This document shows positions 77 through 62,425 of a stretch of DNA of 64,000 nt, piece after piece. How positions within the stretch are numbered: the stretch's first letter is position 1; the number at the start of each line of letters is the position of its first letter. This stretch comes from Tetradesmus obliquus (taxonomy: Eukaryota > Chlorophyta > Chlorophyceae > Sphaeropleales > Scenedesmaceae): assembly GCA_030272155.1 (NCBI GenBank), contig CP126200.1, positions 1,054,001 to 1,118,000 of the forward strand, written 5' to 3'. The translations under genes and the position numbers were made by a program. The notes under the pieces are model-generated. The model had not been told where the DNA came from and did not search any database. It saw only the letters and a list, made by a program, of their open reading frames with translations.

Positions 77-1111
77 GCGGGCTGACGACCGCCAAATTTC
101 ACCCGTTTGCTGCATTTGCTTTTGCTGCACACGGTGTGCTCGCCGTCCAGCTGCGGATGCACTCACTGATGCGGTTCTCGTCAAACGCTGAGCCGCGGAT
201 GAGCACCAGCAGCTGCCTGGATACATTGGTAGTGTTAGGCCGCAACACTGCTGCTGTTGGCACTTGTGTGAATTCCTTGCCGTACATGGAGGTTATGTTG
301 AGCACTGCCTCCAGCTTCCAGCCCACAGGCTCTGGGTACGGCTCTGCAGCGCAACAGGCACAGCACAAGGCATACACTGAGTGTTGAGCACTGCTTCTAG
401 CTTCCAATCAGCTGGTTCAGAGTACGGCTCTGCGGGTGCAAAATGCACAGCAAGCTCGTTGTCAACTGTTCAGCAACATGACGATGCTCATAGAGCCATG
501 GCTGCAGGCGCACGCCGTGCCTGTTACATGAGCTATAGCTCTGCGTGCAAGGGTGTTGCATCGCCACAGGTGCCTGCAGCTGCTGGCAGCTGGCAGCTGC
601 AGCACTGCGCTGACTGTACTGGGCTCACTTGGCGTTGTTGACAGGGGGCAGGGTGCCCACCCCAGAAGGTTGAAGATTTGAGTGTACAGCCAGCTGTAGG
701 TGGCCCCCTCGCGCTGCAGTGTGGCGTTGACTGGCAGCTGCGCGGGTAGCTTTGCCCTCCTGGCCAGGGGCTGCGGCACAAGCTGGCCTGCAGGAAAAAA
801 CACCATATTACAATAGTTAAGCTCACATTGTGTGCTGACTAGTCAGCCAGCTGTGTGCTGCACGACGTTGAGCAGCAGCTCGTGCAGGCGCTGCTTCTGC
901 TCAACTTCCCGCATGCTTGCTGGAAGGGGTAGCGCTTACCTCTGGTGTTGTAGAGCGCCGGAGGTGGTTGTTCTGGAGTGGAGCAGAATGGATCAGGTCG
1001 GACGTCCACAGCATCTGTTTGCAGGAGAGCCAAGCACAGCACAGCCAGCAGCAGCAGCAAGCACTGCTGTTTGAAGGTTGCGAGCAGCGCTGCAGCGCCT
1101 GCGATTGCCAT
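1..1111 (-). CDS. Secreted class-3 lipase-like protein, partial (paralogue 2)
   Basis: This is the 5' part of a gene that runs off the left edge. Exons seen: 940-1111 (ATG at 1111), 629-787 and 167-343; phases agree (1,1,1). Exon 1 encodes a signal peptide with a Leu-rich core, then a Cys/Pro-rich start of the mature protein. Exons 2 and 3 encode segments nearly identical to the lipase gene at 3061-6092, including PTAAVLRP and QLLVLIRGSAF. The second matches the strand before the active site in class-3 lipases. The catalytic exons lie outside the window. Both genes point the same way, so this is a tandem duplication. An upstream block (about 1199-1273) resembles 6181-6270 ahead of the other copy, so promoter sequence was duplicated too. 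Family assignment rests on the complete paralogue. Confidence 0.8.
383..435 (-). repeat. Echo of lipase exon 3 acceptor edge
   Basis: A diverged 53-bp copy of 297-349 (the 5' edge of exon 3) sits 86 bp away inside intron 2. It keeps a usable acceptor (CCGCAG|AG) and an open frame resembling the real exon (PYSEPADWKLEAVLN). Confidence 0.8.
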
Positions 1112-3060
1112 TGCAGCGCTTGAAGCTGAAGGTTATAGTGATTGTTCTAAATTCAAGAGGAGGAATCAGCCGTGCACTGGCTCTGCAGCTAGCAGCAGGG
1201 TGCCGGAAGTAGTGAGAGCGAAGGGCTTGCCGGAGCACTGCTGGTCGTAGCGGTAGTTAAAACAGGCAGCAGCTAATCGTGTACGACCATATGAGTTTAT
1301 TCTGTTTTGGCATTGCCCTGAGGTGAGTCACATGACGTTCGAAGCGGGGTACTGCCCGGCCTATGGCTGGTGACAGGCATGGCAGTTTGACAAGGCAAGG
1401 ATACTGTTATCTTGGCGTTGCATCTCGTGTCCTTCTTGCACATGATGCGCGTTATATGGGATGCCACATGATCTCTATGAAAAAATAAACCAATTCGCAA
1501 CGATACGTGTACGCCAGGGCCCTGGCATGATTGCAGACTCCATGCAACCGCAGAGCAGCCCAGCTGCCTGTGCTGTTCACACTGCCAGCCACCTCAACTT
1601 TCAATTCTTACACAGCTGCTCGGCCATAACCTCTGCAGCAGGGTTGTACCAACCACAGCTACAAGTGCAGCTCCTAGCTGCTGCTCATGCTTGAATAATC
1701 CTTTGAGCACTGGCGCCATCCCGTGCTCCGGTGTGGGTGCCACCAACACTGGGTGTAGCCACCGCCCACACAGCTATCACCATCATGGTACTGCAGACTG
1801 CACAAGGGCGTGCTGCAGCAGCTCCTACTATGCATGATGCATGTCTTCATGACGGGAGAAGTTCGCCCCAAAGCCATGATCATGATGCTGCTCAATCGAG
1901 TCCACCAGTATGCAGGTCATGGCATGGCTTGCGCACGACTCAACGAACAAGCCACATGCTGCAAAAGAATATGTCAGCCACCGCCACTGACAGCACTCCA
2001 CAATGAGCATGCAGCAATGCACTTTAGCAGGCCCTGCTGGCCACCCTCAACTTGTCCCAACAAGGACCTGCCAGCTGCAAGCAACATGCAGCCAGCACAG
2101 CCAGAAACAGACTTTTTAATAGCATCATTGTGATGATCTTGCACTCGCACGGCAGCTTCAACTCAGTTTTGAAGCCTGCCGCACGACTGTGCATACAGCA
2201 GGTCTTCAGGTCAAGCCGAGAACAGCTACATAGGCGATGCTGCTGCACATCCAAGCAACAGCCCGTGCAGCTGCTGGTTGCCTGTGCAGCAAGCACTGCA
2301 GCAATGCAGCCAGCACAGGCCCTCACCCTGCTCTTTTGGCAGCGGAGCGGCAGCTGTGCACTAACAATGCAATCATGCATACTGCAACTGCAACCATGCC
2401 TCCTCAGCCATCATGTAAAAGTGCTGGCAGCGGCCCCCAACAGCAACACAGCAGCTATTGCTCCCACAGCACAACCCATGTCCATCACCCGCCACAGGAG
2501 AGCTCTCAGCAATTGCCGCCACTCATTGGCAAGCAGCCTGCTAGCATTACCTGCCGCACCACGTTGAGCGGTGCACTGCTCATTGGCCATGCAGATTCGC
2601 CTGTGCCTGGACCTTCTGTTTTTTTAAAAAACCCTTCTCATCAGTAGGCATGATTATGTGACCCAGAAAACCCAAAGCAACCTGCACTGGCCAATCTTCG
2701 GCAAGCCAATTCAGGCTTCTTATCTACATACAAACAGACAAAGCTGACGCACCAAGATTCACTGCACACTGTGTGCGCCTTATTTATGTAGCTGTGTTCG
2801 ACAGCTGGCACCAATAATATAGCTACGGCGCAGTGGAACACAAAAATGAGCACCAATCACAGATCACTAAAGTCATGGTCAACGGCATGTGCACAGTAAA
2901 GATCATAAAAGTGGCGCCAAATTTGAAAGGTGTTCACCAGTCGAACACATCACAATGCTCACATCACATCATTTCAAGCCTGATCACTGACAATCTGGTC
3001 ACAGCAATACCTAAATCAGCTCCCATCCTGCCTGTAGCTGCACCTACTCCCCACTTGCTG
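1112..3060. other. Intergenic region between tandem lipases
   Basis: Promoter side of the left lipase and 3' flank of the right one. Beyond the duplicated upstream block near 1199-1273 I see no conserved coding signal; the open frames here have no recognisable motif. A T7/A6 run lies near 2620. Confidence 0.5.
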
Positions 3061-6000
3061 CTAGGGGTAAGCTGGCTTAGTGGGGAACACCGCTGCAATG
3101 GCGTAAGGCGGGAAGTTGCCACAGTAGGAGGCTTTAGCCAGCTCTGCAGCATTGCCAGTATGCAGCAGGCACCAATCGCCCATTGCATTGGCCACAAACT
3201 GGCTCAGCATGCACCTGTAGCTGCAGATGTGGGCACCAGCAGAGTACACGTCCCCACGGGGATATGGCAACCCTAGCCCGATTGTGTACTGCTGTGCGTT
3301 TTCCCACGCTTGGAACGCTTCTGCTCCTGTTGCTGCAGTAAGGTCGATGCTTTCTACTCCGCTGCCAATTTTGGCCCATGTGGAGCTTTGGAACGGCATG
3401 TCTTGAGCAGTAAAGCGAATGACACCGCCCACGCGTGTGTAGTTGACAGGTGTGGCAGGCACTGGCAAGCCTGGAGGAGCAAAGTTGGCTGTCAGGAACT
3501 GCAAAGCAGTGAGAGCAGCAACACCAACAACTTTTTAGTGGGCAGACAAAGGCAGCAGTGGTTGCAGCGCGTGGCGGCGAGACAACAGGCCAGCACATGC
3601 CGGCGAAGCCAAACTTTGGACTCAGTTGGCTGTGAGGAACTCCACAGCAGTAACAGCAGTGGAGACATCACCAGTCCAGTTGGCAGGCAACAGCATCAAC
3701 GTGCAGCAGCGCAGCTGTGTTTTCAAAGATGTCCAGCAAGCAGGTACCCATGAAGCTGCAATTCAGCAGCATGGCATTGCACGCTGCTGACAAACATCAT
3801 AAGTCGCGGTCAGATCCATGGGGGCGGTTAGTTGAAGCTTCAACTAAACTGCCCCCCATACAATGCCCTGCTACGTGAGCAAGTACCAGGGCCCAGCATA
3901 CAATCAGATTCAAAAACATGCAGGAACAACAACCCCAACCTTTTGCTTTGCACCCGCAAGCTGCTGGGTGCCGTTTGATATGCAGCATATGCTGCGTTGC
4001 TGGTGTTGCCCACCTTTGTATCTCTGTCAAATGCAAAGTCCATTAGGCGCGCGTTGACCCTCCTGTTGAAGATAGCAGCAAAGGCAGGATTGCCTGCATT
4101 GGCGGCTGCAAAGCCCACCAGAGACACAAATGGCCTGGCTCGCAGCGAGGCAGGCAGGAACTTGCAGGCTCCTGGGTTGGCTGTGCTGTTGGCTGTGCTG
4201 TTGCACTCCTTTGCCAGATACTTCTGCGGGGAAAAGAGTGGTGGACAGGGCAAGCAGCCTGAACTGAGCAGCCTGAACTTGCATGCAGGATACTAAACAC
4301 ATGACTGCTGGTTTGTGATGCTGACACTGCCGCCGCCGCCGCTGCTGCTGCTGTTGCCGCTGGTGATGGAGTGCAACATCCATAACTTGCATTTTCCCCA
4401 AAGCACTAGCCAGCTGCCACCTCACCCACCTCTGTCCTGGCAGCAAGCAGTGTGCCCAAGCCTCCCCCCATGCTGTGCCCGGCAAACAGCACACTGGTGA
4501 TGCGGCCACTGGTGGCGTTCACAATGAGCTTGCGCAGCACTGCCTGCAGGCCTGCCCTGTCACTGCCCCACAGCTGATCAGATGCGTTGCGGTAGCCGCG
4601 GTGAATGAGGCCGTCACCGTATGCAGGGGCGGCGATCTGCGAGTAATCATAGTCTGCAGCAGCAGCAACAGCAGCAGCAGCGGCAGCAGCAGTTGCAAAG
4701 GCAGCAAGGTGAGTACAGTTGGCTATCCCTTGTCAGCTCTATGTGCAGACAGGCCACTGCACAGCTGTAGTGCAGAGGGGAGCTGCACTGCAGAGGGGAG
4801 CTGCACTGCAGAGGGGAGCTGTACTGCAGAGGGGAGCTGCACAACCGAAGAGTGAAATACGTCATGCCGACTGGGCAATGCACAGTTGCAGCAGCTGCTG
4901 CGGCTGTGCTGGATGCGCAGCTGTTGTTTGAAAGCTCTTGATGCGGTTCAAGGCTTGATGCTGTTGCCTGGCATGCAAAAGCACGCGCTGTCCAGTCACT
5001 CAGACAGTCGCCGGCTGCTGTACAGTTAGCCGCCCCGCCACACTGCAGCAGCAGCAGCAGTAGCAGCAAAGGAGGCAGCATGCGTATTGGCCCATGTTAC
5101 TGTTCAGCTCACCAATGCGGTCTTCTTCGCCAGCAAATGCTGAGCCCCGGATGAGTACCAGCAGCTGCCGTGATATGTTGGTGCTGGCAGGCCGCAGCAC
5201 TGCTGCTGTTGGCACCTGTGTGAATTTGTTGCCGTACAGTGAGGTGATGTTGAGCACTGCCTCCAGCTTCCAGCCAACAGGCTCTTGGTACGGCTCTGCA
5301 GCACAAAAAAGGTGCAGCAGCAAGGCGCATGTCACATGTGTAACCAGAGCTCTTATGTGGCTCTGCCCCCAGTGCGCCCTGCCGACCACCAGCCATCCAT
5401 CCAGCCAGCCAGCCAACCAGCTGCCTCATTCAGCACCTGCTGCAGTGTATCGTAGTAACTACCTGCTCATTGCGCATTGACCACAAGTCGACTGTGTTGA
5501 ATTAGCTCTGCCTGCCCAGCAGCATGGCCTACAAGCGCCTGCTGCCGCAACAGGTGGCGCTGCATCCACAATAATACATGTGCGCAGCTGCAGCGCTTGC
5601 CACCAGCTCACTTGGCGTTGTTGACAGCGGGCAGGGCGCCCACCCCAGCAGGTTGAAGATCTGTGTGTACAGCCAGCTGTAGGAGGCTCCCTCGCGCTGC
5701 AGTGTGGCGTCAACTGGCAGCTGCGCGGGCAGCTGGGCCCTCCTGGCCAGAGGCTGCGGCACAAGCTGGCCTGCACAGACAACGTTCCAAGACTGAGCAA
5801 TCAGGATGAGCATGTATGCACAACCAGCTGGCTATGAGCTCTGCACTGCATGGCGTTGCACAGCAGCACATGCTGACACGTGCTGCTGCTCGAGCTTCTG
5901 CCTGCTGCAAGGGCGCTACTTGCCTCTTGTATTGTAGAGTGCAGGAGGTGTTTGGGCTGGAACTGAGCACATAGGATCAGGAAAATCGTCTGCAGCGGTT

Positions 6001-7800: not shown

Positions 7801-7804
7801 TCAC

Positions 7805-8052
7805 TTCTGACGCTTGTGTACCTAACCAGCAGGCTAGCAGAGACCTCCCACACCCTGCCTCGCCACCAGCTACCATCAGCAACCACACTGACCTGAACAA
7901 CACGTCATAACATGTTATGTAACAACCTCACTTCTGGCGCTTGTAGACCTTGGCCAGCAGGCTGGTGAAAACGACCCACACCCTGCCTTGCCACCAGCCG
8001 CCGCCAGCACCTCACTCACCAGTGCCATGTTATAACACATTAAATAACATCC
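7805..8052 (-). repeat. Two echoes of the FPS terminal exon
   Basis: Two copies (about 7805-7930 and 7930-8052, unit about 123 bp) of the segment that ends the farnesyl diphosphate synthase coding region (IYKRQK-stop plus flank) lie downstream of the real stop. The nearer copy is much closer in sequence; the far copy is decayed. Confidence 0.85.
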
Positions 8053-10021
8053 CTACTTCTGGCGCTTGTAGATCTTGGCCAGCAGGCTGGTGAAGACCTG
8101 CTTGGGCAGTAGGCTCTGCTCCTCAATTGTGGCGCTCAGCTGTGCGTGGCTCTGTGCCTCATAAGCCTCAAACTTGGATGCCAGGCCCAGCTGCGCGTAC
8201 ACCTCCTTCACCTTGGCCACAGCAGCGGGATCCTTCTGGCCGTAGTTGGCCTGCGAGTTGTTTGCAGGAATGTTTTTGCAGGAATGTTTGCAGGATTTGA
8301 ACAGAGCGCGTGAGTTGACGGCCAAGCAAGATGTGGTGCTGCTTACGGCGGCGTGCGGCATGCCAGCTGCCCCAATCCTTGCTGTTCAGCAGCATATGCA
8401 CGAGCTGCTGCGACCTGCTGCCGAATGCGCCGCCACAACACCATTGATCAGCCGAAGCATGATCACCCAACAGGATTACAGGCGGCGTAACCCCGCACCT
8501 TGATGACGTCCTTCTGCTCCTCGCTGGCCTCCTTGAGTGCGGTGCACACCAGCCAGCAGCACTTGGCGTCCTCCACGTCGGTGCCAATCTTGCCGATGAC
8601 AGCAGGGTCGCCGTAGCAGTCCAGGTAGTCGTCCTGTATCTGTCGGTTGGAATGGGGTGTTGAAAAGCAACGGAAAGAGACGGCAGCAACGCAGCAGAGC
8701 CAGCTTCAACATTGTTGCAGGCGAAGGCAGGCGCGAGTTGAGCCATACAGCAGCCGCAGAATGCACTGCAATGACAGCACAGCAATATCCCATATAATTC
8801 TGGGCCAGGCGATAACAAACAGCGCAGCAGACAACCTGTGAACACCACACGGCCCCCACCTGGAATTACTGGCCCATTTCCACGCAAATGGACTCGGCCG
8901 GGGAGCACCACCAAACCATAGAGCAGACACATCTTGACCGTCAACACCACGCGGTACCAGTCCATCTCCACGCAGATAGACTCGGCGCGCCAACGTCCCT
9001 GCCACTGGCAGCCCAACAACATCAACAACAACACTGCGCGGCAGCCCAATAACAGCAGGACATACAGAATCCAAGCCAACACCATACCTGGAAGTACTGG
9101 CCCATCTCCACGCAGACGGACTTGGCCAGCTCAGAGGCAGCTACAACAAATCTCATGGCAATCCAATACAATCCACCCATTTCGACATGCCACCCCACCT
9201 AAAAGTACTGGCCCATCGTCACGCAGATGGACCTGGCCAGCTCACAACTGCGCCAACACATCTGCGCCAACAGCAACTACCCACAACACCAAACAACCCC
9301 ACCGCACCTGGAAGTACTGGCCCATCTCCACACAGATGGACTTGGCCAGCTCAAAGGCAGCCGGCCGTGCCTCGCCAGCCAGCACCAGCCCAGCAGCCAC
9401 GGGCAGGTAGAAGGTGTAGAAGGCCGTCTTGTAGGTCACGATGCGCAGGTAGGCGTCCATGGAGTAGCGGGACAGGTCGATGTGCCCCGGGGGTGCGGTG
9501 GTGAGGTCCAGCAGCTGCCCGTGGCTGGTCTGGTACGTGGTCTGCGGCGAGCAGCAGCAGCAGCAATGTTGGTTAAAATGCAATGATGCTGTGGTCAAGC
9601 AGTTGGCCGTGGCTGGTCTGGTAGGTGGTCTGCGGGAAGCAGCATGTGCAGGACATAGACGTTGAGGTTGTGTTTGGGTGCGTGTGCATGGTGCGGTGGT
9701 GAGGTCCAGCAGCTGCCTGTGGCTGGTCTGGTAGGTGATCGTCAGCAGTGTGTGCAGCGCGGACTGTCAGAGGTGTGGTTGTGACGACAGACAAGCAGCA
9801 GCCCATGCGCTGCAGCACACACGCTGCAAACGGCACCAAGGCCCAAAAGAAATGTTTCTACTGTTTTACATGTAACAAATAACAGTTATAACACCCCCTC
9901 ACCTCCAGGAACAGCTCCAGCAGCTGGCCGTATGCTGTGCTGCCGCCAAAGTGGAACTTGAGGATGCGGTAGATGCAGCACTCCAGCAGGATGTAGTCGT
10001 TGCACGCCACCATGCCCACCT

Positions 10022-10054
<33 letters not shown>

Positions 10055-10695
10055 GCAGTGTGTGGAAAGGGATGTTCATCCTAGGCGGTGCACATTGCAC
10101 ACCAACCCAGCAGGTGATTTAGCGCAAAGGTGTCGGCGAGCATGCAAGACATGGCGGCGAAGAATGTGCAAGCATATGCAGGACCCCAAGCCAGCAGTGC
10201 GGCAGCTGAGCCATGTCAGAGCGCCTAGCAAGCAGCTGTCCACATCACGTCATGGCAGCAGCACTGTTGATAGTGAGCAAGCAGCGGTGCCACATGTTTG
10301 GCTGCAGCTCTGCCTCAGCTGCAGTCTGTCACATACACTGCTGCTGCTGCTGCTGCTGCCGCCCGCGCCTCACCTTGGGCTGCTTGTACCAGCAGGGCTG
10401 CCCCCGCCGCGTGATGGAGCCGTCCATGATGTCATCAGCCACCAGGAAGAAGGCTTGCAGCTGCAGGAAAGGGCAGGCACAGCACGATTGTGTTGTTCAA
10501 ACACAGCTGAGACAGCGTATCACACATGATGTCATCAGCCACAAGGAAGAAGGCTTGCAGCTGCAGCGCAGGTGACACCGCGTATTTGTTGTTTTGTCAG
10601 AAGCTGAGACAGCAAAAGTGCACCTGATGTTGTCAAGCTTGCAGTGATTTGAGCGATTGAATCTGCAGACTGCGGCTTGAGCAAGACAAAAACCA

Positions 10696-10727
<32 letters not shown>

Positions 10728-11194
10728 AAGCAGACCACAGCTCAGGCGGCCGGCAAGAAGCGCGGCTTTGCACCACCATCATTCACTGTGCTGATGCTGG
10801 CTGGGAGATGGGGGCGCTGACCCCGACCCTGCATGCACCAGGCACTGACGCACTGCTGCATGTGCTGCACGGTTTCTGCTGCTTCCGCAGCCTGCTGATC
10901 CAGGGCTGACCCTTTGCTTTCGCTGATGCTCTGCTGCACCTATGTGGCTTGCGATCAGCAGCTTGATCTGCGACCACTGCTGCTGTCCTGGTGCCCCACA
11001 CAGCGTGCCTGGGTGCTGCGCCTGCTGCTGCTGCTGCTGCTGCTGTGCCCTATACGGCGCCTCATGTGTGTGCTGCCGCTGTGCCCCAAACAGCGCCTGG
11101 TGTGTGCTGCTGCTGCTGCTGCTGCTGCTGCTCACCCATTCGATGCACCAGCCCAGCGCGTTGGCCTTGAAGATGTCGTCCTTGCTCAAGTTCT

Positions 11195-11231
<37 letters not shown>

Positions 11232-12193
11232 GCAGCAATGATAAGGAGCTGCATGTGTGCATGGGTGTGCTTTGCAAAGGCTACAGGCCATCACCAGCAG
11301 CTGCGAACACACCGAAACAGCACTGCCTTCGTCTAATGGTGTGCTCGTCTCCGATGTACTGCCTCCGCAGCAAGCCGTGGCTGCTGCTGCTGCACATTCA
11401 GTGACAGGCAGCAACTGTCTATCGACTGCAGCTGTTGATACAGCCGGCTGCACTGCTGCAGCTGCCCACCTCTGCGCCCTTGATGGATGCCAGCACATCA
11501 TACACTGCCATGCCCCTGTTCAGCTTGCCACCTGGCACGTTGTAGTCCAGCATCTGCGTCGATAGCAGCAACAGCAGTGGTATCAGAATGTTAGCATGTC
11601 AGGAGTCTCTGAAACACATTCAATTCAGCTGCCATTGTGCCAGTGCTGTGAGTGGGGGTGTACTGCTTGGCCAGCTGTCCTGCCACCAAACTGGTGTCAT
11701 CGCTATCATCCAGCATGTTCTGCAGCAGTAGCGCCCTAAAGTAACAACTGTCTCACCTCCTTGAGCCAGTCCTTGGCCTCCTGCGGCTGCCCCTCCAGCA
11801 TCTTGTCATCGAGCAGCTCTTGCCTCAGGGTGGCATACACATCAAGGAACGCCTGTCGACAGCAGAGAGCACATTGCGCGGCTGAGATGCGTCGTCGCTT
11901 ACTGAGCTAAGGATGATCGAACCAATCAGGGCAGCACAGCTAGGAGCCTCCGGCTGCGGACGAGCTTGCAGAAATCGATTGTAGGTCGCTGCTGCAGGTT
12001 GCTGCTGTTTCTGAGCTGCACGACGAACCTCGCGTGTATGGTTGTACTCAGTTTTTGCTTTCTTCGTTTGGGGCTCTGCTACGGCTGCCATGGTGCTGAA
12101 CTGTGCCTCAGGCTGGGTCACTTGTTGGCAGCACAGAGAACTCAATGCCCGAAGGTTGGGGATCTGGTGTCGCAAAGAGCGCGCGTATATCAT
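8053..12193 (-). CDS. FPS: Farnesyl diphosphate synthase
   Basis: Condenses IPP with DMAPP and then GPP to make FPP, the precursor of sterols and prenyl groups. Exons: 11903-12091, 11757-11852, 11470-11553, 11136-11192, 10374-10460, 9903-10019, 9308-9541, 8499-8633 and 8053-8250. All are phase 0, 1,197 nt, 398 residues from the ATG at 12091. Motifs in order: GGKLNRG, LGWCIEW, the first Asp-rich motif DDIMD (about 151-155) followed by [32 protein letters not shown], the second Asp-rich motif DDYLD (about 289-293), and the IYKRQK C-terminus typical of plant FPS. The frame stays open upstream to an ATG at 12193, adding 34 residues rich in Arg, Ser and Gln with almost no acidic residues; this resembles a mitochondrial presequence. 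Exon 1 otherwise encodes a 63-residue leader not found in short FPS. Several exon edges are echoed in the introns. Confidence 0.96.
8858..9245 (-). repeat. Four echoes of the FPS exon 7 donor edge
   Basis: Partial copies of the last roughly 50 nt of exon 7 plus its donor recur in intron 7 at about 8858-8895, 8950-8985, 9085-9140 and 9195-9245, spaced about 100-135 bp. Copies nearer the exon are more alike, and the two nearest keep AG|GT donors. Confidence 0.85.
9597..9745 (-). repeat. Two echoes of the FPS exon 7 acceptor edge
   Basis: Copies of the exon 7 start (acceptor plus [10 protein letters not shown] codons) at about 9597-9650 and 9689-9745 in intron 6, so this exon is echoed on both sides. 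Confidence 0.8.
10526..10566 (-). repeat. Echo of FPS exon 5 acceptor edge
   Basis: A 41-bp near-identical copy (one visible mismatch inside) of 10426-10466, offset by exactly 100 bp, carrying the [11 protein letters not shown] codons. A further shared GCTGAGACAGC downstream of each copy suggests the original duplication was about 100 bp. Confidence 0.9.
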
Positions 12194-14682: not shown

Positions 14683-14913
14683 TTACGACCGCACCTCCTG
14701 CTGCTGCTGCTGCTGCTGCCGATATTGCTGCAGGACTTCCCGGCTCTCCATCACACCAGCCAGTGCAGCAGCAGACACTGCAGGGGCCTTGCTGTCCTCT
14801 GCTGCTGCTGCTGCTGCTGCTGCAGGAGCAGGCTCCAAACTGCCTTGCCATGCAACTGCCTGCGGCGCTGCACCCGTGTCTGCGACAACGGTGTACCCAG
14901 CAGCCTCTGCTGC

Positions 14914-14959
<46 letters not shown>

Positions 14960-16504
14960 TTGCTGCTGTGGCTGTTGCTCTCAGGGCTTTCACTGCTGCT
15001 GCTGCTGCTGGCTGCTGCAGCAGGCGCTGCTTCTGCAACTGCTGCTGCTGGCTCTTCAGGCTGCTGCTGCAGCACCTTCTTCTTTGCAGCAAACAGCCCC
15101 TCCTCAACAAGCTTTGCCTGCCGCTCCTGCTCTGCCCTCTCCGCTGCTGCTGCAAACATAGCTGCCTCTGCTGCTGCATTGCGGCGCTCGATTTCGGCTT
15201 CCAGTGCAGCTGACTCGATGGACAGGGGAGGCAGATCATCCGCCTCTGCCTCTATGTCTGCTGGGGCCTGTGGAGCATTCTCAGCCTGCAGCCAGCAGCA
15301 GCAGCAGCGACAGCAGCAGCAGCAGTATTATGGAACTGCTGTTACAAGCAATGCTTGTGGAGTGATGCGCACCTGCAGCAATCCAAGCGGATAGATTCTT
15401 AAACAGTCTGTTGTCTGCAGAAAGCTCGCATCACACGGTGCAGCATGCTAGGATGAGAGCTATTGCATCTTATGAACAAGCGACACGTCCCAAGCGCAAG
15501 CATTCAAATGCACATTGTCATTGCTGCAGTAGCACACTCTCCCACATAAAGGCAACTGTGATCCTGCTTTCCTGCAAGGCCTACAGGCTCACCTGCTCTG
15601 CCCTCTTCCTGGCTACCGCCATGGCAGCATTTGCACGCGCAATGGCGGGGAACCACGCGCCGTTGTTCTCCGCAGCCACTGTCACGATGAACAGCGATGC
15701 TGCGCTGCCGATGAAGACAGTCCAGACTTTGCTCTTGTCAATGTACTGCTTTGGGAGCGGCTTTGCCATCTGTGTCATTTGGCTGGCTGGCACGGTCTGC
15801 AGGCAAGGCAGAGGAGCAATGAATGGTTGATGTGATGGCACAGCACTATGCACGAAGCAGGAAGCCTCTCGGCTCCCTGACGAGGAGTTCAAAGCAGCAC
15901 TAGCACATGTCCAGGTGCAATGCAATGCTACACGTGCACCTGCTGCAGCTTGATGTTCTGCTTGCTACTACGCCACGACATCCATGGCGACCTCTTCATA
16001 CAACAGCTGCCAGCAAGTGTGATCAACAGTAGCGGCGAGGCAAGTTTGCATGGCATTGTGTTGGTAGCAGGCACTGGCATTCCAAACTGAGCAGATGTTT
16101 CCTGCAACCCTGCTTTGCTGTTGATGGGCCTCAGGAGGTGCTGGCACGGCACCCACCTGAACTAGGTCTGCAGCAGCTGGTAGCGGGTTGACCAAAGCGG
16201 CAGCTGTGATGGCTGCTGACGCTGCAAACGCAGCAACCTGCTGCTGCAGGCCAGCAGCCCTCCGCTCGCCATCCTGCAAGCAGCATGGACACCACGCATG
16301 CCATCAGGTTGCCGCATGCATACACAACATTGCTGTACACCTGCTTGCAATGTGACGGAGGCACTCGCATACCTTGTTGAAAGCTCTGCACACGTGCCTA
16401 CGTGCTTTGCCTGGCTGCACTCGTTGCTGCAGAGATGGTGCAGAAGCAACACCACTGCTGTGCCCACGGCGCACCAGCCTGCATGATGTGCTTGCCGCCT
16501 GCAT
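14683..16504 (-). CDS. Plastid-targeted single-pass membrane protein, unidentified
   Basis: Four exons: 16373-16504, 16157-16273, 15593-15796 and 14683-15285, 1,056 nt, 351 residues, all phase 0. The first 44 residues are Ser/Arg-rich without acidic residues, like a chloroplast transit peptide. Residues about 55-80 are a hydrophobic Ala-rich stretch ending PLPAAAD, which resembles a thylakoid-transfer signal. A second hydrophobic segment near 107-125 (VWTVFIGSAASLFIVTVAA) is followed by ENNGAWFPAIARANAAM, which looks conserved rather than low-complexity. The tail is Ala/Glu-rich, possibly coiled coil, then poly-Ser/Gln. I do not recognise the family. A thylakoid or envelope membrane protein is inferred from targeting only. 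Confidence 0.6.
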
Positions 16505-41653: not shown

Positions 41654-41696
<43 letters not shown>

Positions 41697-46744: not shown

Positions 46745-46785
<41 letters not shown>

Positions 46786-47170: not shown

Positions 47171-47201
<31 letters not shown>

Positions 47202-47688
47202 CACCATTCTGCGTCGCTGCCCGCCAGCAGTGTGCCGCATGCTGACAGGCTCAAACACACTGCAGCTGTGGCTGAGCCAGAAATGTCGCAGGATCAAAAT
47301 GCTGCTCACCATTCTGCGTCGCTGCCCTCCAGCAGTGTGGCGCAGCTGCCTGTGCGGCCCTCCTGCAGCGCGTTGATGGGCACAGCCTGCAGCCGCCGCA
47401 GCAGCCTGGCAGCAGCAGCAGCAGCAGCAGCAGCGTAATAGGCGTGAAGAGAAAGGTGACGCCGCCCAGAATGCAACCGACCACTCCGTAAGAGTGCGAT
47501 CAATCCGTAAGAGTGCATTGCACAAAGAAGGCTTTTATAAGCAGCTGCTGCCACCTGCACAGGGTTTCCACACCAACAGCTGGCGCTGCAGTGTGTGTGC
47601 ACACTACTGCTGCACAATCAGCCACAGCCAGCACACTGCAGAACCGCCTAAAACTGCCAGCCATAGACTTGCGTTGCTCGAATGAATC

Positions 47689-49990: not shown

Positions 49991-49999
49991 TAGTACGGT

Positions 50000-50282
50000 G
50001 TGTCAGCTGCCAGCGCGGTAGGCAGCCCAGAGAGCCAACATGAGCCAGCAAGCATGCAACAGCACTGAGCCAGCATAAGCCAGCATGTCGTGTGTTGAGT
50101 CAGCTGCCAGCGCGGTAGGCAGCCCACTGAGCCAACCTGAGCCAGCATGAGGCAGCACTGAGCCAGCATAAGCCAGCATGTCATGTTATGAGTCAGCTGC
50201 CAGCGCGGTAGGCAGCCCACTGAGCCAACATGCGCTCCTTCTGCTTGCATCTTTCCTTCCATATCTTGTGCAGAAGTGCATG
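50000..50282 (-). repeat. Three echoes of the metalloprotease terminal exon
   Basis: Copies starting near 50003, 50098 and 50191 (unit about 90 bp) of the stop-codon end of the real last exon at 50283: WAAYRAGS-stop plus flank. GTCAGCTGCCAGCGCGGTAG is identical in all four. Confidence 0.95.
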
Positions 50283-53076
50283 TCAGCTGCCAGCGCGGTA
50301 GGCAGCCCACTGAGCCAACATGCGCTCCTTCTGCCCCGCAGTGAACGACGTCATGCACGCGTCCGGTGTGTAGTCCTGCAAGGCACACATGCGCAGCAGT
50401 TTTATGTTATCATTTGCAACATTGGTATGTCATCGGGGGCACATCACATTACTGTTGCTGCGCGGCCAGCAGCATGCAGGGCTGGGCGCTTCGTCCAGCA
50501 CACAGCTGCAGCTCACTGCACCGACAAGGCATCATCATCAGCAGCGGCACATGCCAGCACCAGCTCTGACAGCTTGTGGTAGCACATGCTGGGAGATGCA
50601 GGCATGGCTCGTCCTGCGCATGCTGGGCATTGGCCTATGCAACCGATATACATTGCAACTGCTCCCCTGGTGCAAAGCAACATTCAATCATGTGTAGCCT
50701 AACTGTAAAATGACACAAAATGTAACATGTCCCACCATGAAGTTCTCGATCAGGTCTTCTCCCGGCAGGCTGGGGCACGAGTCTGTCTTCTTGCAGCGCG
50801 TGTTGGCGCTGCGCACGGCTGGCGTGTCCTCCACAAAGTCCCCGCCATCGGTTGCAGACATGGCGCAGCCACCCTGCACACGGAATGAAAGTTGTGTTTA
50901 GATTGCGCTAGGTCACTTGTGCGGTACGTTTACACACTGATGCTGGCAACTTGCAGACATGGCGCAGCCACCCTGCACACGGAGAAATTGTTTGCGGTTA
51001 GTTTGTGCTACGACACTTGTGTGGTACTTTTAAGCACTGCTGCTGGCAACTTTCAGAGGACTGTATTGTGGTTGCATGCTTGCTGCGGGAAGGTGAAGGG
51101 TAGCTGCAGGCAGTGCAACTGCGCCTGTGCAGCCGCAGAAGTTGTGCTGGCAGCAACAGCAGCAATTTACTTGTGCTTGCACAGCACTGCAGCAACCGGA
51201 CTGCTGCACTCACTCCAGCATATCAACTGCTAGCTGCTGTGACTTGATAGCAGGTATTTGCATTGTCAAGGCCAGTCCGCGCTGCTGCTGGTGACTGCAT
51301 GGCTTGCTGCGCTGTGCTGCGCGCTGCCTACCTGGAAAGTGTGGTAGGCCCCTAGCCTGAAAGCATACAGGAAGCAAAGACGGAAAACGGCAGCAAGTGT
51401 ACCAGTCAGCATCTCCCTTTTTTGGCTTATGATAAGTCGGTGATTATGCGTGAAGTACATGCGTATGCAAGATGCTTTTGCTCATTTTTGCTGTCGCAAA
51501 ATCGAAGCAGCACTCTGCAAAGTGGGCCTTCATGTTAGCACCCACGCAGCATCAACCAGCTTGCTGCAGACTGCCGCGCCAACGATCATCAGAACAACGC
51601 TATCATCCCAAAACAACCGTTGCAGCTATACAGCAGCTGCATTCAAGCCCCAGCAGCAGCCGTGAACTGCAGCTCCTCACCCCAGCAGGGCCCGACTTGT
51701 GTCATTTCTGCCATACGTTATACATATGACGCACCAAAAGAACTATGAGATATTTGACTCACCAGTGCCCAATCTCGTGTGTCAGTGTGTGTCCCAAATT
51801 GTAGTCCTTGTAACTGCCGCCAGTGACTGACTCATGCATCACCACCACACCATCTTTACTCGGGTTCTTGTAAAACGCCTCCGGAAATGTGGCCCATCCC
51901 AGCACCCGATTCAGCGGCGCCCAGGTGTACACATGTAGGCTGCTGGCCGCACTACTGTTTGCAGTCCTGCTGCTGCTGCTGCTGTTGTTCAGCTGCTGCT
52001 GCTGCTGCCTGACAGCATCCTTAATGCGCATTTCACCAGGAGAGTCCTGGCCCGATTGGAACAGCGCTTTGTCCTCAGTTGTGTACCATGTGACTTGCTG
52101 GATCAGAAACCTGAAGCTGCCTCGGTAGGCGCGGTTTAGCAGCATGATCTGCTGGTTGATGCGCCGCCGGGGGATGAAGCCCTCGAGCGTGCTGCTGCTG
52201 TTGCCGCTGCCGCTGCTGCCGTTGTACTGCACAATGTGGAAGAACACCTGGAGAGGCATACAATGAGAGGGTGTCGGAAGGGAGTTGAGCAGGAGCGGAG
52301 GCATACTTCGGTTGTGCACAGCGTCGTGTCTGGGGACAGGCGCAAGGCACTTGGGTAATGCTCGGCTCCACAACCGGATTCAATGTATGCGCAACACAGC
52401 ATGCCTAACAGTACAAACGGCAAGTAGGTCCATGACAGCGGCACACTCACAGGCACTTGGGTGATGCTCGGCTCCATCACAGGTTCTGATGTATGCACAA
52501 GCATCATGCTGACAAGTGCAAACAGCAAGCAGGGGCACAACAGCAACACACGCCCCAGCACTTGAGAATGCTCGGCTGAGGAAAGTTTGCGGCATCACAG
52601 GATACGGTGTATACACACAAAATCATGCCTGACAATCTAAACAACAAGCAGAATGTAAGCAGGCGCATGACAGCCGCATGCTCACCGGAATCTGTGTGAC
52701 TGGCTGCACGCTGATGCTGCCACCAATGCTGTCGCTGCTGGTGACACTGCCAGCAGCAGCAGCAGCAGCAGCAGCAAGCACCTGGCTGTCATACCCTAGC
52801 TGCTGCAGCCGTATCTGAAACCGCTGCTCCGCTACAGCCCTATCAACGCTGCTACCCTCATTTGTGCCGCAGCGCCTGACTTGTGGAGGAGCTGCCACTG
52901 CTGCTGCTGCTGCTGCTGCTGCTGCTACGCTGTCACTAGCTGCTGCTGCTGGGGTGGGCTTGAGGGGCTGCTGCGTTGCTGAGGCCAGCAGCGCAGCGAC
53001 TGCGCGGTCCAGCTCCCTGCCACTGACGTACCCAAACTGCTGTGAAGCTCCTTCTGGCTTTGATAGCTTGCGGCTG

Positions 53077-54971: not shown

Positions 54972-56732
54972 CACCATGCACTCACCGACATGTGCAGGCC
55001 CCACAGCGGCCCTGACAGCCCCGGCAGCAGCAGCCCTGCCCCGATCAGGCTGGCCAGGCCTGACAGCAGCAGGCCTGAGGGTCCTGACAGCTGGCCTGAG
55101 CAGCCTGACGCTTGGCCTGGCGGCTGGCTTGAAGGTCCTGAGGGTCCAGACAGTGGTCCTGAAGCCTGGCCTGAGGCCTGGCCTGAGGGTCCTGACAGTT
55201 GGCCTGAGGGTCCTGAAGCCTGGCCTGAAGGTCCTGACAGCTGGCCTGAGGTTTGACCTGAGGGTCCTGAGGGTCCTGACAGAGGTCCTGAAGCCTGGCC
55301 TGAGGCCTGGCCTGAGGCTGCTGCCAGTGCCAGGCCGGCCAGGTCGATGAGCTCAGGGGGGCAGGCGCTGCCGGCAGCAGCAGCAGCAGGGGGCGCGCAG
55401 AAGCGCAGCAGCAGCGAGGAGGGGCGCAGCGCTGCCACAGCACCTGCAGGACAGCAACAATGACAAGAGCATGGTGATTGGGGCCAGGGCAGCAGCAGCA
55501 GCAGCAGCAGCAGGGAGTAGCCAGCCAGCCAGAGCTACTGGTAACACCTGCCGTGGGGTGGCATCAGCTGAACAGCGGAGCCTTGGGAATTGTTTGCGTG
55601 TGCAAGCACATCACACAGCTCAGCAGATGCCAACAAAGTGGCATCATAACCCCCCCCCACCCCTCATACCTGGGGTCAGGGTTGCGGCCACATCAACAGG
55701 CGCCAGCTGTACCTTGCCCCGCGGCAGCTGCCCAGCCTGTAACAACAAAGTAATAAGAAAACGACAGCTTTCCCGCACCTGGCGTCAGGGTTTCGGCCAC
55801 ATCAACGGGCGCCAGCTGTACCTTGCCCGCGGCAGCTGCCCAGCAGCAGCAGCCAGTTACAACAAAGTGCAGCAACAAACTTACAACAATAGTAACATCT
55901 TGAACCGCACCTGGCGTCAGGGTTGCGGCCACATCCACAGGTGCCAGCTGCACCTTGCCCCGCGGCAGCTGCCCAGCAGCAGCAGCGCCCGTGATCATCT
56001 CCCAGCACACCACCAGCCGCTCCACTAAACCCTCCGCAGCCGCCAGCCGCGAGGGTTCAGCCAGCCCAAAACCCCCGGCGCCGAGATCTGGCACTTGAGC
56101 TGCAGCAGCCGCAGATCCTGTTCCTGGTCTGGCCTTGCTGGGGCTGCTAGGTGCTGCTGCTGCTGCAGCAGCTGCTGCTGCTGCTGCTGCTGTTGGCAGC
56201 ACTGCCAGCAGTCGTTGCGTGTCGCCTGGCTCCAGCACTGCCACCACTGACAGCGCGTGCTCTGCAGCTAGGCGGTCAGGCAGGCAGCCCAGCCAGGCCC
56301 TGCGAGATGCAGCATCAAGCATGCAAAACAATTAGGATCCTCACAGGGATGCTTGCGACGGGGTGGAAGCTGCACATTCTGCGCTAGGGCGACGCAATCT
56401 AGTTCCCACATCACCTCGGCTAAGCAGGAGGCTGTGAAGCAATTCTGAAGTCGGTAACAGTACAGACACCGCAAGTACAAGGCGTTCCACTGTGCCTCGC
56501 GCAAACCTAAAGTAACGCTCGCTGGCCGCAAAGCCCCAAGTACAACAAATGACATGCAGCAGTACCAGCAGCGCCGCACCTGAAGTAGCGCTCGCTGGCG
56601 TTCCTCACAGCCAGCTCCAGCAGCGGCTCACTGCCCACTGCACGCCACCCGGCAGCAGCAGCAGCGGCAGTGGCAGCAACAGCAGCAGCGCCACCCCTGG
56701 CCCTGCTGTCATGCTTGGTGGGTGAGCCTCCA

Positions 56733-56774: not shown

Positions 56775-58704
56775 CCATCGCGCTGCGGCACATCACTGCT
56801 GCTGGAGTGGGTGCCATCAGCCAACAAGGCAGCAGCAGCAGCAGCAGCAGGTGAAGCCGGACCCTGCTGCTGCTGCTGCTGCTGCTGCTGCAGGGCCCCT
56901 AGTCCTCCTCTTTTAGTAGGGCTGCTGCCAGGGCTGCTGCTGCCACCAGCAGCAGAACCTGCTAGCAGCATTGCACTCACACCTGCTGCCCCCAGCCCAC
57001 CTAGCACCGGCAGTGCCCCATCGCTGCTGTTCCGCACATGATGTGACGGGTGCCGCCGCAGCATACTACTGCCTCCCGGGCTGGCTAAACCCCCAGGGGA
57101 GCCCTGACCCCCAAACCCTAAACCGCTGCCGCCTGAACCCTGATGCTGCAGCTGCAGCTGCGCTAAGCCCTTAGGGTTGAATTCTGAGCCGCTGCCGGTC
57201 CTGCTGTCAGGCCGTAGTGTGGTGAGGCTGCTTGCTAACTGCTGGTGCTGCTGCAGCAGCCTGCTGGGTAGCTTTATATGCTTGTGGCCGTTCAAAAGGG
57301 GATGGGTTTGTTGCAGGAAGCGTACACTTTTGATCTGTAATGTAGGCTGAATGGAGAGCCGAATAGGCAGGGTGAGGCGGCGGCCGATCAGGGGCGGCTC
57401 ACTGCTGCTGCTGCTGCTGCTGCTGCTCTTTGCGGATGTGCCATGGTAGGTAATGCGCACCTGCAAGAGCAAGATGCACAGTGATAGTATCAGTGCTGGA
57501 GCTCACAGTTGCTGCGATGCTTGAGGCAGGCAGGTGAACAGCGTATCTTGCAGTAGCTGTTTGTAGAGTTGGCTTGCGCAGCAGGTGCAGCTGTGACAAG
57601 GCCATGGTCTCAAGCTGGTGCAGATACTGCGGCATTTATTGTGATGCCATTCTGTTACGCTTCGCTCAAACGATAAGAGGTTGAGTCCTGATAGCTGAGA
57701 TATGAAGCTGCTATTGCATCATCAAGGAGTACATCACAGTGGCTGGGTTTTAAAGCATGGCTAAAACCCCACCTGCAGCATGACGGCATCAAAGGCGTCC
57801 CCGGGCGGCTTGCCTACTGTTACCGCCACAGGCAGTGACAGGCTGCCGCCAGGGTTGAGCGGCAGGCCTGCTGCTAAAACCTGCTCCCCGACCTCCATGT
57901 GGGCTCCGCTGAAGCTGGAGGGGAGCTGCTGCTGCTGCTGCTGCTGCTGCTGGTTGGCTGTTGCTGCTACTGGGGCTGGGCTGAGTGGCTTGATCACTAG
58001 TCCCTTGGCATTCAGTACAATGATCTGCAGGAGTGGAGTTGATAAAAGTGAACAGAGGGCTCAACACGTTGAGGCAAATTGCAGGAATGTATGCATGTCA
58101 CAGAGCGGCTGTGACATGGTCAGACACCCTTGCTGCGTGCCAAAGCGGCCCTCACCTTGCAGTCCGTGACAGCCTGTGCGCTTATGTTGCTCAGGTTCAG
58201 CGTCCAGCTCAGTGTTTATTGAACATGGTCAAAACATGCTTGTTTCATGCATATTCCATGGCAACATCAAGACTTACCTTGCAGCCCGTGACAGCCTGGC
58301 CAGATATGTTGCTCAGGTTCAGCGTCCAGCTCAGCGTCTGCCCCTCGAACACCACCACAGGTGGCACCTTCTTATCCAGCTCCGACACACCAGCAGCAGC
58401 AGCAGCAGCGGCAGCAGCAGAACTAGTAAATCCTGCGGCTGTCCATGGAGACGCACTGCTGCTGCTGCTGTTGCCCGGTGTCTGGCTGCTGCTGCTGCTG
58501 CTGAAGGTAAGGCCTGCTAGCTCCTCGTCTGCTGGTGCTGTGAGCTGCACTTCGGGCCCATGCAGCACAGCCTGCAAGACAACCAGCAGCACACACCAAA
58601 GGGCAGCAAACCCGTCAGATGCATGCAATATGTGCATGCCAGCTGGTGCGGTGAGCTGCACCTCAGGCCCGTGCAGAACAGCCTGCAGAGTGAAGGACCA
58701 GCAG

Positions 58705-58739
<35 letters not shown>

Positions 58740-59422
58740 AGCACGCGTAGAAAGAGAACATAACACCAGGCTGTCAACTGCAGCAGATCTCGCGCATGAG
58801 CTGCACATCAGGCCTGTGCAGCACAGCCTGCTGGAGCCAGCAGCGCAGCCAATACAACATGAGGCCGCCAACAACTGCAAGCAGCAGGGGTGCGGCTGTG
58901 ACCTTGTCTGGTGCGCATAACACACTGCTCAATGCATGAAATTTTCTGACTTTGCAATGCTCAGCCTGTGCATGCCTGCATGGGGTCTGCTGCATGCTAG
59001 GCAACCCGTGCCATTCACCTTGAGCAGCGGCTGCACATCCACTTCCAAGGCACCCTGTGGCGACACCCTACCCGGCTTTGTGCTGCTGCACCATACTGCA
59101 TACCTTCAACTCACTGTGAATTTGCCTTGCCACACCCTACCCTGCCAAGTACTGCCATACAATATTCATAATGTCAAGCAGCTTGATCAGCGGCAGCGGC
59201 GGCTACACCCTGAAGGCACCCTGTCAGCATTTCACCATACCTGAAGTAATAAATTGGTCACATACATGTGTTGAGCGTACCTTGATCAGCGGCAGTGGCG
59301 GCTGCACATCCACTGTGAAGGCGCCCTGCGGCGACAGCGCCTCGTGGCCCGCTGCTGCTGCTGCCAGGCGCGGCAGCTGCACGAACGGCTGGTACCACGA
59401 CACACCCCAACAGCTCGCCTGC

Positions 59423-60654: not shown

Positions 60655-61043
60655 GTTTAAGGCGTTTGGGGGTCAAGACAGCTGGGCTGGCACTGAGTGG
60701 TTGGTCCTGCGGCTCCAAGCAGGGCAGGCATACAAGCCAGCATACGCGAAGAAGTCTGCAGCCCAAGAGCAGGGGCGTTTGAGCAGAGCAGCATAGAAAC
60801 CAGCAAGCCGCCAACGAGCAACTCAAAGCCCCAGCCTCAACTTCCAGCCACATTTAAACCCCGCGAACCGCTCACCCAGCGCTGCACGGCAGTATAAGGG
60901 CTGGCGGCACTCATCAATAAGCAGCAGAGGCAGCAGAAGCAGCAGTAGCAGCAGCCACAAAGGTCGCTGGTTCCCACCTGGCAGCACGTGCTTGAGCTGC
61001 ACCTGAGGCCCCGGGCCTGGTCCGGCACTAATTCATTCAAGGT

Positions 61044-61094
<51 letters not shown>

Positions 61095-61256
61095 CACCTG
61101 GCAGCACTCGCTTGAGCTGCACCTGAGGCCCCGGGCCTGGTCCTGGCCGCAGCCGCGCCCTTGTGCCCATGGCTGCTCCTGCAGCAGCACAGGCCTCCAT
61201 GAGGCCCACCTGCAGCGACTGCGGCAGCAGCGGGTAGGACTCCCTGCGGCGGCAGC

Positions 61257-61316: not shown

Positions 61317-62200
61317 TTCGACAGTGTGTAGCTCATTGCTGGAGATACCTTGGGGTGCCGCCGCTAGCAGCTGATGGAATCGGTCAACAGAGCTGAGTGC
61401 ATGCAGAAGTATGGCTAGTGCTGGGACCAGAAAGGTTACAGCCACAGCGACAGCAAGCAACACTGTTGCAGCAGCGGCCAGCAGTGACTCTACTGACGAA
61501 GCTGGCCTGCCCTGGATGCAGTTGACAGCGTCCATCAACATGCCAGCTGAGCAGCTACTACTGCAGTTTAGCCGAACCCCTCAAACACCCCTGCTAATAA
61601 CAGTGACAACGATGTAACAAACGATAAATTCAGCATATGTCTCAATCAGCCGCACCTCAGCAGTGTAGCAGCAGCCTCCCATGCTTCAACAGGCGCAGCA
61701 GCAGTCTTGGCAATAGCCACAACTGCCTCCAGCACTGCCACCAGCACACCTCCCCAGGGGCTGACCCACTCATTCACCAGTCCTAAACCGCCCCTGCCGG
61801 GCGGTAAACCCCACAGCTTGGCACTGCTGAACCCTGCATCTTTCGCACTGCTGCCGCTGCTAACACTGCTGCTGCTGCTGCTGCTGCAGAACTGCTGCAG
61901 CAGTGCAGCCTGCTCAGGGGTCAGCAGCTGCAGTCGAGGCCCTAGCAGCTGCAGGAACTGCTGCTGATGCTGCTGCTGGCCGTCCTGCTGCTGCTGCTGC
62001 TGCCAGCTAGAACCCTTACTGCTGCTGCGGGTGATCTGCGCATGTCTGCTGCTGCCGTGTTTGGACTGGCTGCTGCTACTGCTGCTGCTGCTGGTGACTG
62101 TGCGGGAGGCGCTCTGCTGCTGCGCCAGGTCTATGTGCTGCTGCTGCCAGGCAATGAAGCGCTTCATGGCCCAGTGCACACGTGGCAGGTCATCAGGGTC
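54002..62200 (-). CDS. TRS120/TRAPPC9 TRAPPII-complex subunit, C-terminal part
   Basis: Eleven exons in phase: 61656-62200, 61098-61243, 60379-60572, 59748-60152, 59281-59418, 58278-58571, 57773-58024, 56580-57460, 55911-56299, 54986-55443 and 54002-54790. They total 4,491 nt, 1,496 residues; the N-terminus lies beyond the right edge. TRS120/TRAPPC9 landmarks: ESYPLLPQSLQVGLMEACAA, APCLQPLHLSP with GPFIFNPYAAKRK, VCGEEGWVEVLLVNPCATAL (Ig-like segment), GRRLTLPIRLSIQPTLQIKS, NASERYFR, and VGEWLCLDLEVTY near the end. The protein tethers vesicles and regulates Rab11-type GTPases at the trans-Golgi. The fold is inflated by Ser, Gln and Ala runs and, near 55060-55320, by a Gly-Pro-Ser/Gln-Ala-Ser repeat. 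Several exon edges are echoed, two of them on both sides. Confidence 0.85.
55060..55320 (-). repeat. Coding minisatellite (SGPSGQASGQ-type)
   Basis: Within TRS120 exon 55443-54986 (sense), a degenerate 15-nt-based repeat encodes alternating SGPSG, SGQASG and SGQLSG, about 85 residues. It is in frame with flanking conserved sequence, so it is translated. Confidence 0.85.
55665..55850 (-). repeat. Two echoes of a TRS120 exon donor edge
   Basis: Copies of LPRGKVQLAPVDVAATLTPG plus donor end at 55779 and 55670. The first is exactly 132 nt (44 codons) past the real donor (exon end 55911), with an open frame between them. The second is a further 109 nt away, out of frame. Confidence 0.9.
58155..58215 (-). 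repeat. Echo of TRS120 exon 58278-58571 donor edge
   Basis: Copy of the LSWTLNLSNISGQAVTGCK segment with its AAG|GTGAGG donor, about 120 bp beyond the real one. Confidence 0.9.
58640..58835 (-). repeat. Echoes of TRS120 exon 58278-58571 acceptor edge
   Basis: Two copies (about 58640-58690 and 58797-58840) of AVLHGPEVQLTAPA codons with their acceptors. Together with 58155-58215 this exon is echoed on both sides. Confidence 0.85.
59017..59215 (-). repeat. Echoes of TRS120 exon 59281-59418 donor edge
   Basis: Two copies (about 59017-59065, 59170-59218) of the QGAFTVDVQPPLPLIK segment, decayed with distance. Confidence 0.85.
60975..61044 (-). repeat. Echo of TRS120 exon 61098-61243 donor edge
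   Basis: Near-identical copy of the GPQVQLKRVLPG segment with its CCAG|GTGGG donor, separated from the real one by a (CAG)n run (61044-61093). Confidence 0.95.
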
Positions 62201-62264
62201 CTGGCAGTACAACAGCAGCAGCAGTACAACAGCAGCAGGGTATTGAGCAAGCATGGTGTCTGAA

Positions 62265-62425
62265 GATCTGTGAAGCGCTTCATGGCCCAGTGCACACTGG
62301 GCAGGTCGTCAGGGTCCTGGCAGCACAACAGCAGCAGCAGTACAACGGCAGCAGCAGTACAACAGAAGTGCTGTGAAGCGCTTCATGGACCAGTGCACAC
62401 GCGGCAGATCGTCAGGGGTCTGTTA
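62265..62425 (-). repeat. Two echoes of TRS120 exon 61656-62200 acceptor edge
   Basis: Copies at about 62265-62325 and 62368-62425 of the PDDLPRVHWAMKRF segment. The nearer one keeps CTGCCAG|GACCCTG; the farther one is altered at the acceptor. Confidence 0.95.

Follow-up and report, generated by a model that had tools for sequence, protein, structure and literature searches.

In plants, short tandem duplications arise from paired-nick or patch-mediated repair of breaks, and these are not known to have any tie to coding boundaries. Tandem genomic duplication is already known as a source of introns, as stated in the accessible parts of two papers (PMC4974935, PMC2809761). Mean intron length in Tetradesmus obliquus is 462 bp, compared with 230–302 bp in three other Sphaeropleales, according to Table 1 of the available portion of PMC5966456. 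The present analysis bears on the open question of why intron length differs between related genomes. It concerns a stretch of 64,000 nucleotides of T. obliquus nuclear DNA (contig CP126200.1, positions 1,054,001 to 1,118,000, forward strand), called the window below, in an assembly of 104.66 Mb in 17 contigs. In the window, blocks that straddle exon edges recur beside those edges, in the adjoining introns and 3′ flanks. Such exon-edge echoes are possibly an unrecognised route of intron growth. In the open-licence literature, as covered by titles and the starts of abstracts, no description of echoes of this kind was found.

Echo families and exon edges

Repeat families were defined by blastn of the window against itself, at offsets of 40–1500 bp. 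Of 39 families, 36 were kept once a 30-bp minisatellite and two clusters of polyglutamine type had been set aside. The minisatellite (24086–24296) has seven copies in intergenic or unannotated DNA; it is the largest array there, and it was excluded before the edge count. In the curated gene models, 35 of the 36 families touch an exon edge or an end of the coding sequence (CDS). Three of these (19991–20450, 20576–20937, and 58531–58847) reach an edge only through exons that were added later, and without them the count is 32/36. The sole family with no annotated edge, at 52345–52651, ends 35 bp before a donor; by eye it looks like a donor-edge array. At least one echo family is present in 10 of the 12 gene models. 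A sequence-only reading of the window had described the local recurrence of edge-straddling blocks in eight of eleven main genes; the recurrence holds.

Smith-Waterman alignment, with triplets masked, gave 60 echo copies at 34 edges, with 43 in the window and 17 in kinesin loci. The mask also conceals the 30-bp minisatellite at 24 kb. Each probe carried 100 exon bases per edge, a length that caps the measurable exon depth. Successive edges are 86–148 bp apart in 54 of the 60 copies, and the other six lie at 172–299 bp, as if an intermediate copy had faded. In the repeat unit, the exon contributes about 53 bp (± 16 bp) and the flank about 65 bp. Exon depth by blastn is mostly below 100 bp, and a copy at kinase edge 39262 reaches about 165 bp. 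A whole-exon duplication would touch both ends of an exon, and no blastn family does so. Of an intron, both edges are touched by 1/36 families (55072–55328, a minisatellite).

Kinesin exons were located by Pfam PF00225, and 27 of the 30 introns so derived were used for a splice consensus, which is strong (donors CAG|GTG, acceptors CTGCAG|G). A small gene-finding hidden Markov model (HMM) built from this consensus returned about a dozen main genes and some small doubtful ones. The predicted FPS, with nine exons on the minus strand (8053–12091), is 100% identical to the annotated T. obliquus protein OEZ86_005226. It is the sole gene with exons checked against an annotated protein, and the HMM output had 6/9 of its exons exactly correct. 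Most other exon models are HMM predictions curated by hand. Several echo copies that the HMM had called exons were removed by hand, and the curation was done after the self-comparison had been inspected. Pfam confirmed Lipase_3, polyprenyl synthetase (FPS), SERF, tyrosine/serine kinase, and M43 peptidase, and a PsbP match fell slightly below the cut-off. Nothing in Pfam matched the SET-like, WD-type, gene-4, or last genes, whose labels were assigned by eye. Protein searches with the kinase had no annotated T. obliquus kinase among the matches listed.

Two checks are independent of the hand-made models. Searched by tblastn, the FPS protein matches eight further places outside its nine exons over 11 residues or more and with 66% identity or more, each at an exon edge or at the end of the CDS: one at the start of exon 5, two at the start and four at the end of exon 7, and one after the stop. 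Shorter or weaker chance matches were also obtained below these limits. The kinase donor echoes at 40057–40134 and 39920–39988 were detected by three of seven kinases from other organisms. The echoes are real.

Preference for coding boundaries

At a stricter threshold, 23/138 probed edges have an echo in the adjoining non-coding DNA, while with non-coding DNA taken from other genes the same probes were positive in 0/690 cases. Among exon-centre windows, 0/72 have an echo. Among tiled windows, a local repeat occurs in 16/431 intergenic, 70/362 intron, 40/239 edge, and 11/128 wholly exonic ones. All 11 positive exonic windows come from edge families. Nine of the 16 positive intergenic windows are free of exon overlap, and their arrays sit at an end of a CDS or at an exon edge; the remaining seven overlap an exon. 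Every listed repeat pair without exon overlap falls within one of the 36 families, 52345–52651 included, and the array at 52345–52651 is the only such family in the window away from edges. An early shift test was non-significant (17 edges with an echo against 14.9 expected), and its power was low because roughly one quarter of the intron sequence consists of echoes.

Echo rates, with blastn and Smith-Waterman hits pooled and nine edges entered by hand, are 15/57 for acceptors, 15/57 for donors, 4/12 for last-exon ends, and 1/12 for first-exon ends. Three of the four last-exon ends are sure stop codons (FPS, kinase, and M43), as the sequence-only reading had it, and the fourth, WD 43357, is possibly a donor. 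Since stop codons are affected about as often as acceptors and donors, although in small numbers, the target is the coding/non-coding boundary and not the splice site. A splice-specific mechanism was set aside, as stop-codon edges also carry echoes. Introns with an echo have a median length of 579 bp (n = 27) and those without one of 278 bp (n = 30; p = 5e-6), which fits the expectation that echoes go with longer introns.

Differences between copies

Echoes differ from the real exons mostly at third codon positions. Mismatches at positions 1/2/3 number 42/45/155 of 959/956/938 sites (60 echoes, 34 edges), with 147 synonymous and 95 non-synonymous changes; 61% are thus synonymous, where random change would give 27%. 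The third-position excess is found at 28 of the 34 edges, and a deficit at four. Position 3 exceeds positions 1/2 in every base class. The excess is strong for A and T (36–39%) and CpG (30%), against about 5% at positions 1/2, and slight for other C and G (7–8% against about 5%). Third-position changes are balanced, with 64 from GC to AT and 63 from AT to GC.

The same bias separates one echo from another. Echo-echo mismatches, with the kinesin array (kin5) excluded, are 31/21/76 (p = 8e-10, with pairs within a family non-independent), and at kinase 41398 all 12 of 12 lie at third positions. This bias and the placement of 35/36 families (32/36 without the later-added exons) at coding boundaries set the families apart from an ordinary minisatellite array, in which neither location nor divergence would follow the coding sequence. 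The count of 43 copies in the window bears out the estimate of more than 35 echoes in the sequence-only reading, as do the 26/36 echoes aligned to a splice edge that retain AG or GT its statement that the site is usually readable; the dinucleotide is lost in 10/36.

The adjacent 45 bp of non-coding sequence show 25% mismatch (32 scorable echoes). Flank, position 3, and positions 1/2 thus stand at 25 : 16.5 : 4.5, the first two being 5.6x and 3.6x the last. By our reasoning, neutral decay of a local duplicate predicts 2 : 2 : 1. The observed ratio does not fit this, and the differences of synonymous type speak against the earlier description of echoes as copies of the local exon. Similarity was also said to fall with distance from the real exon. 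This was not borne out, as mismatch is 7.9% for first, 10.5% for second, and 7.1% for later echoes.

The simplest reading of these sequence differences is that the copies diverged while coding, on different chromosomes (as alleles or now-lost paralogues), and were joined in cis later. Two separate coding histories would need two chromosomes or a lost paralogue. The mismatch of about 4.5% at positions 1/2 would mostly be decay since the joining in cis.

Proposed origin of the echoes

The explanation put first, although tentatively and with less than even confidence, is that each echo may derive from a second, diverged allele of the same gene, whose exon edge was placed next to the resident one through recombination in which only exons pair. 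The steps, all inferred, would be as follows. Two chromosomes with well conserved exons and strongly diverged introns would meet, and a broken end within an exon would be copied from the other chromosome. Synthesis would run beyond the exon into intron or 3′-flank sequence with no counterpart on the chromosome of the broken end. The strand, unable to anneal back, would be end-joined, and the edge of the second allele would be placed beside the first. Insertions within exons would be eliminated by selection, and breaks deep in introns would encounter no homology. Splicing would retain the copy joined to the exon body, while the other copy would decay as an echo. Unequal exchange within an array could add copies, and the net outcome would be intron growth. 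Such exon-anchored recombination would account for the boundary rule, the similar rates at different edges, the missing interior families, and the pattern of divergence.

A wider statement, which is doubtful, would make the introns of this alga a fossil record of other alleles. The echoes would be frozen exon edges of other haplotypes, stacked in cis by exon-only-pairing recombination of hyperdiverse chromosomes and end-joined where homology stops. If this is true, the boundaries between exon and intron homology are a mutational hotspot that drives intron growth. As homology ends where the exon ends, all exon edges in populations of high diversity would become hotspots of duplication, and the echoes would amount to a dated archive of former alleles, and of sex, in an alga.

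Several points weigh against the allelic explanation. Allelic divergence of the required size in T. obliquus is an assumption of the model, and arrays of at least four copies need several events or allele types. The gene models are mostly hand-curated, with FPS alone verified. Well-defined kinesin edges are mostly clean, with echoes at 2/54. Start codons should carry echoes, yet the single positive first-exon end is acceptor-like; few starts are well defined. Some families resemble tandem repeats, as the two nearest echoes of kinase 41398 have 90–92% flank identity and those of kinase 38150 have 75–85%; at kinase 38150 the excess at third positions is also small (7/7/10). The edge excess, moreover, is sensitive to how visible non-coding repeats are. 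At a detectability of 0.1, P is 0.002–0.009 for 35/36 and 0.09–0.23 for 32/36, a case that matters because the allelic model has non-coding repeats born diverged. The weaker P for 32/36 and the missing start-codon echoes slightly lowered confidence in the allelic explanation and slightly raised that in its closest rival.

Ordinary duplication. This rival is unlikely, although it ranks highest among the rivals. Local tandem duplications of about 120 bp would arise everywhere, exonic ones would be purged, and those at edges would stay visible longest through their one constrained copy. The units are indeed tandem or near-tandem with variable CTG tracts, and several families have equal similarity in their exon and flank parts. 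Within a pair, conservation is 92% in the exon part and 65% in the flank, so that old edge duplications would outlast old non-coding ones. The edge excess is weak or gone at the lowest detectability given above. However, uniform duplication with exon purging gives an expected edge share of 0.27–0.32 at equal visibility and 0.55–0.61 at a visibility of 0.3. The latter value was taken because a match confined to non-coding sequence is present in about 12 of the 36 families. With it, P for 35/36 is 1e-8 to 5e-7 and for 32/36 1e-5 to 3e-4, depending on the exons counted. Ordinary duplication predicts many wholly non-coding families, of which 52345–52651 is the sole candidate. Edge preference as mere survivorship is thus unlikely, unless non-coding copies are almost invisible. 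Nor does ordinary duplication produce a bias to third positions when two non-coding echoes are compared. Because of this echo-echo bias and the near absence of interior families, purely local duplication followed by neutral decay was ranked behind the allelic explanation; individual families, for example kinase 38150, may still have arisen in this way.

Assembly or polishing artefact. If a divergent haplotype or strain supplied some of the reads, these could align at exons and be clipped at the edges, and the pieces could be inserted into the consensus. This is improbable. It would account for the edge location, the allele-like differences, and the spacings, which mostly end just under 150 bp, a common short-read length. 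It does not suit arrays of four to seven copies, nor the decay of the echoes, in which 10 of 11 indels break the frame, the AG or GT is lost in the proportion given above, and exon-part identity falls to 74%. Predicted introns are unusually long in an independent draft assembly (UTEX 393) as well, with the mean of 462 bp given in the accessible part of PMC5966456.

Present coding use. Still less probable is that the echoes are alternative exon edges under present coding constraint. Stop-free reading in the exon frame by 52 of 53 ungapped echo exon-parts, and the frequent retention of the splice dinucleotide, are what such use would give. Spacings modulo 3, in contrast, leave remainders 0/1/2 in 26/19/15 cases, a single kinesin array contributing six of the 26, and the indels mostly break the frame. 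Last-exon echoes, which are unreadable in frame past the stop, also lean to the third position (6/5/13, mostly from the kinase). Present use was set aside on the frame evidence and the 3′-flank echoes.

Intron gain. That the echoes are splice-linked tandem genomic duplications on the way to new introns (the AGGT model), a link the sequence-only reading had drawn through AG|GT, is very improbable, for although the duplications straddle and copy splice sites, stop edges are affected about equally, and one family of 36 touches both edges of an intron, where this model needs the donor and acceptor edges to be copies of each other.

Echoes along the window

Lipase and FPS: On the minus strand, an acceptor-edge echo of lipase copy A lies at 296–452 (exon ending 343, period 86; self-blastn). 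Two lipase-type genes with matching exon peptides stand a few kb apart (167–737 and 5113–5720), and the first is truncated by the window start. Four FPS features, also on the minus strand, were found by both tblastn and self-blastn. The stop-codon edge 8053 recurs in the 3′ flank with a period of 127 (7801–8097). The exon 7 donor edge 9308 has four donor echoes in intron 7 (8841–9361), the exon 7 acceptor edge 9541 has two echoes (9492–9757), and the exon 5 acceptor edge 10460 has one (10425–10613). P0005, a predicted protein of 541 aa from another source, starts as a homologue of the gene at 14683–15778 and continues as FPS. Its layout, compared with FPS and the neighbouring 14.7–15.8 kb gene here, indicates either conserved synteny or a merged gene model.

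SET-like gene, gene 6, and PsbP-like gene: The SET-like gene, on the plus strand, has an array at acceptor edge 18948 with a period of about 110 (18460–19021; self-blastn). It also has three echoes of acceptor edge 20392 (19991–20450) and one of donor edge 20655 (20576–20937). These two edges share one exon, which was added by hand after the repeat had been seen. Gene 6 (plus strand, 27199–27651) has one echo each of acceptor edge 27325 and donor edge 27449, with a period of 126. In the PsbP-like gene (minus strand) a donor-edge echo of edge 33910 lies at 33725–33924 (self-blastn).

Kinase: All kinase families are on the minus strand. The stop-codon edge 36864 recurs in the 3′ flank with a period of 95 (36564–36947), and acceptor edge 38150 has three echoes with a period of 125 (38077–38559). 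A donor edge near 39262, with an uncertain end, has two aligned echoes (38619–39426) and the deepest copy, with exon reach to 39426. Donor edge 40167 has two echoes, which kinases of other organisms also match (39886–40238). Acceptor edge 40317 has echoes at 40273–40829 (self-blastn), and donor edge 41263 has one (41113–41346). Acceptor edge 41398 has three echoes and a further partial copy (41338–41980).

WD-type gene and M43 metalloprotease: Both are on the minus strand. WD-type edge 43357, which is a donor or CDS end in an uncertain model, has two downstream copies (43122–43385). Echoes of WD-type acceptor edges 44803 (44760–44905) and 45524 (45481–45701) and of donor edge 47310 (47195–47348) were found, together with a three-copy array with CTG tracts at acceptor edge 46588 (46556–46965). 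The stop-codon edge 50283 of the M43 gene has three further copies in the 3′ flank (49999–50334), and its acceptor edge 50878 (50861 in the HMM output) has an echo (50852–51057). The array at 52345–52651 lies beside M43 donor 52686, matched by eye only.

Last multi-exon gene: This gene, on the minus strand, has two echoes of donor edge 55911 (55668–55986), one of donor edge 58278 (58151–58337), and one of donor edge 61098 (60921–61143). Acceptor edge 58593 has two echoes (58531–58847), with an exon start set by hand after the repeat had been seen, and the acceptor-like edge 62200 has two (62155–62417). Beyond it, an 11-bp satellite (TGTGCTGTGGA; about 135 copies, 89% matches) occupies 62510–64000, about 1.5 kb, and runs past the window end. 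CAG/CTG triplet tracts are very abundant throughout the window, in exons, in introns, and beside acceptors. They may aid slippage within the echo arrays.

Kinesin loci

By eye, 4 of 22 kinesin loci have edge families, and by the edge count given above the window is much denser in echoes than the kinesin edges. In a kinesin on contig 2, the Pfam profile segment at about 262–289 is matched four times consecutively, and an acceptor array of seven copies is present. After reverse complement, this array (locus L026, 655–1590) forms one open frame through CTG tracts. Its spacings of 123, 126, 135, 138, and 141 are each divisible by three. On contig 3 (C3:6204834-6209953, loci L023 and L003, reverse complement), the 52 bp before two predicted acceptors, 3415–3467 and 4701–4753, are 81% alike. 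This pair belongs to one gene and lies 1286 bp apart.

Comparison with known systems

The plant break-repair duplications are like the echoes in their similar unit length and end-joined local copies. Allele-like differences are not expected from them.

Introners, in the accessible part of PMC9860276, resemble the echoes in adding intron sequence to many genes. An introner is one element at many sites, unlike the one echo family searched genome-wide. For this family, 41338–41767, the own locus was the sole match in a search of 104.7 Mb in which simple repeats and very common words were skipped.

Intragenic duplication, as cited in the available parts of PMC4974935 and PMC2809761, is similarly a source of intron sequence within genes. 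Here, exon edges are copied, and none of the 36 families is a whole-exon repeat.

The potato RdRp case, as described in the accessible text of PMC4974935, is also a short tandem duplication with splice signals, and the parental intron/exon structure was copied. In potato a new intron arises, whereas in the alga it is introns already present, and 3′ flanks, that lengthen; stop-codon edges take part as well, and the copies differ mainly at synonymous sites.

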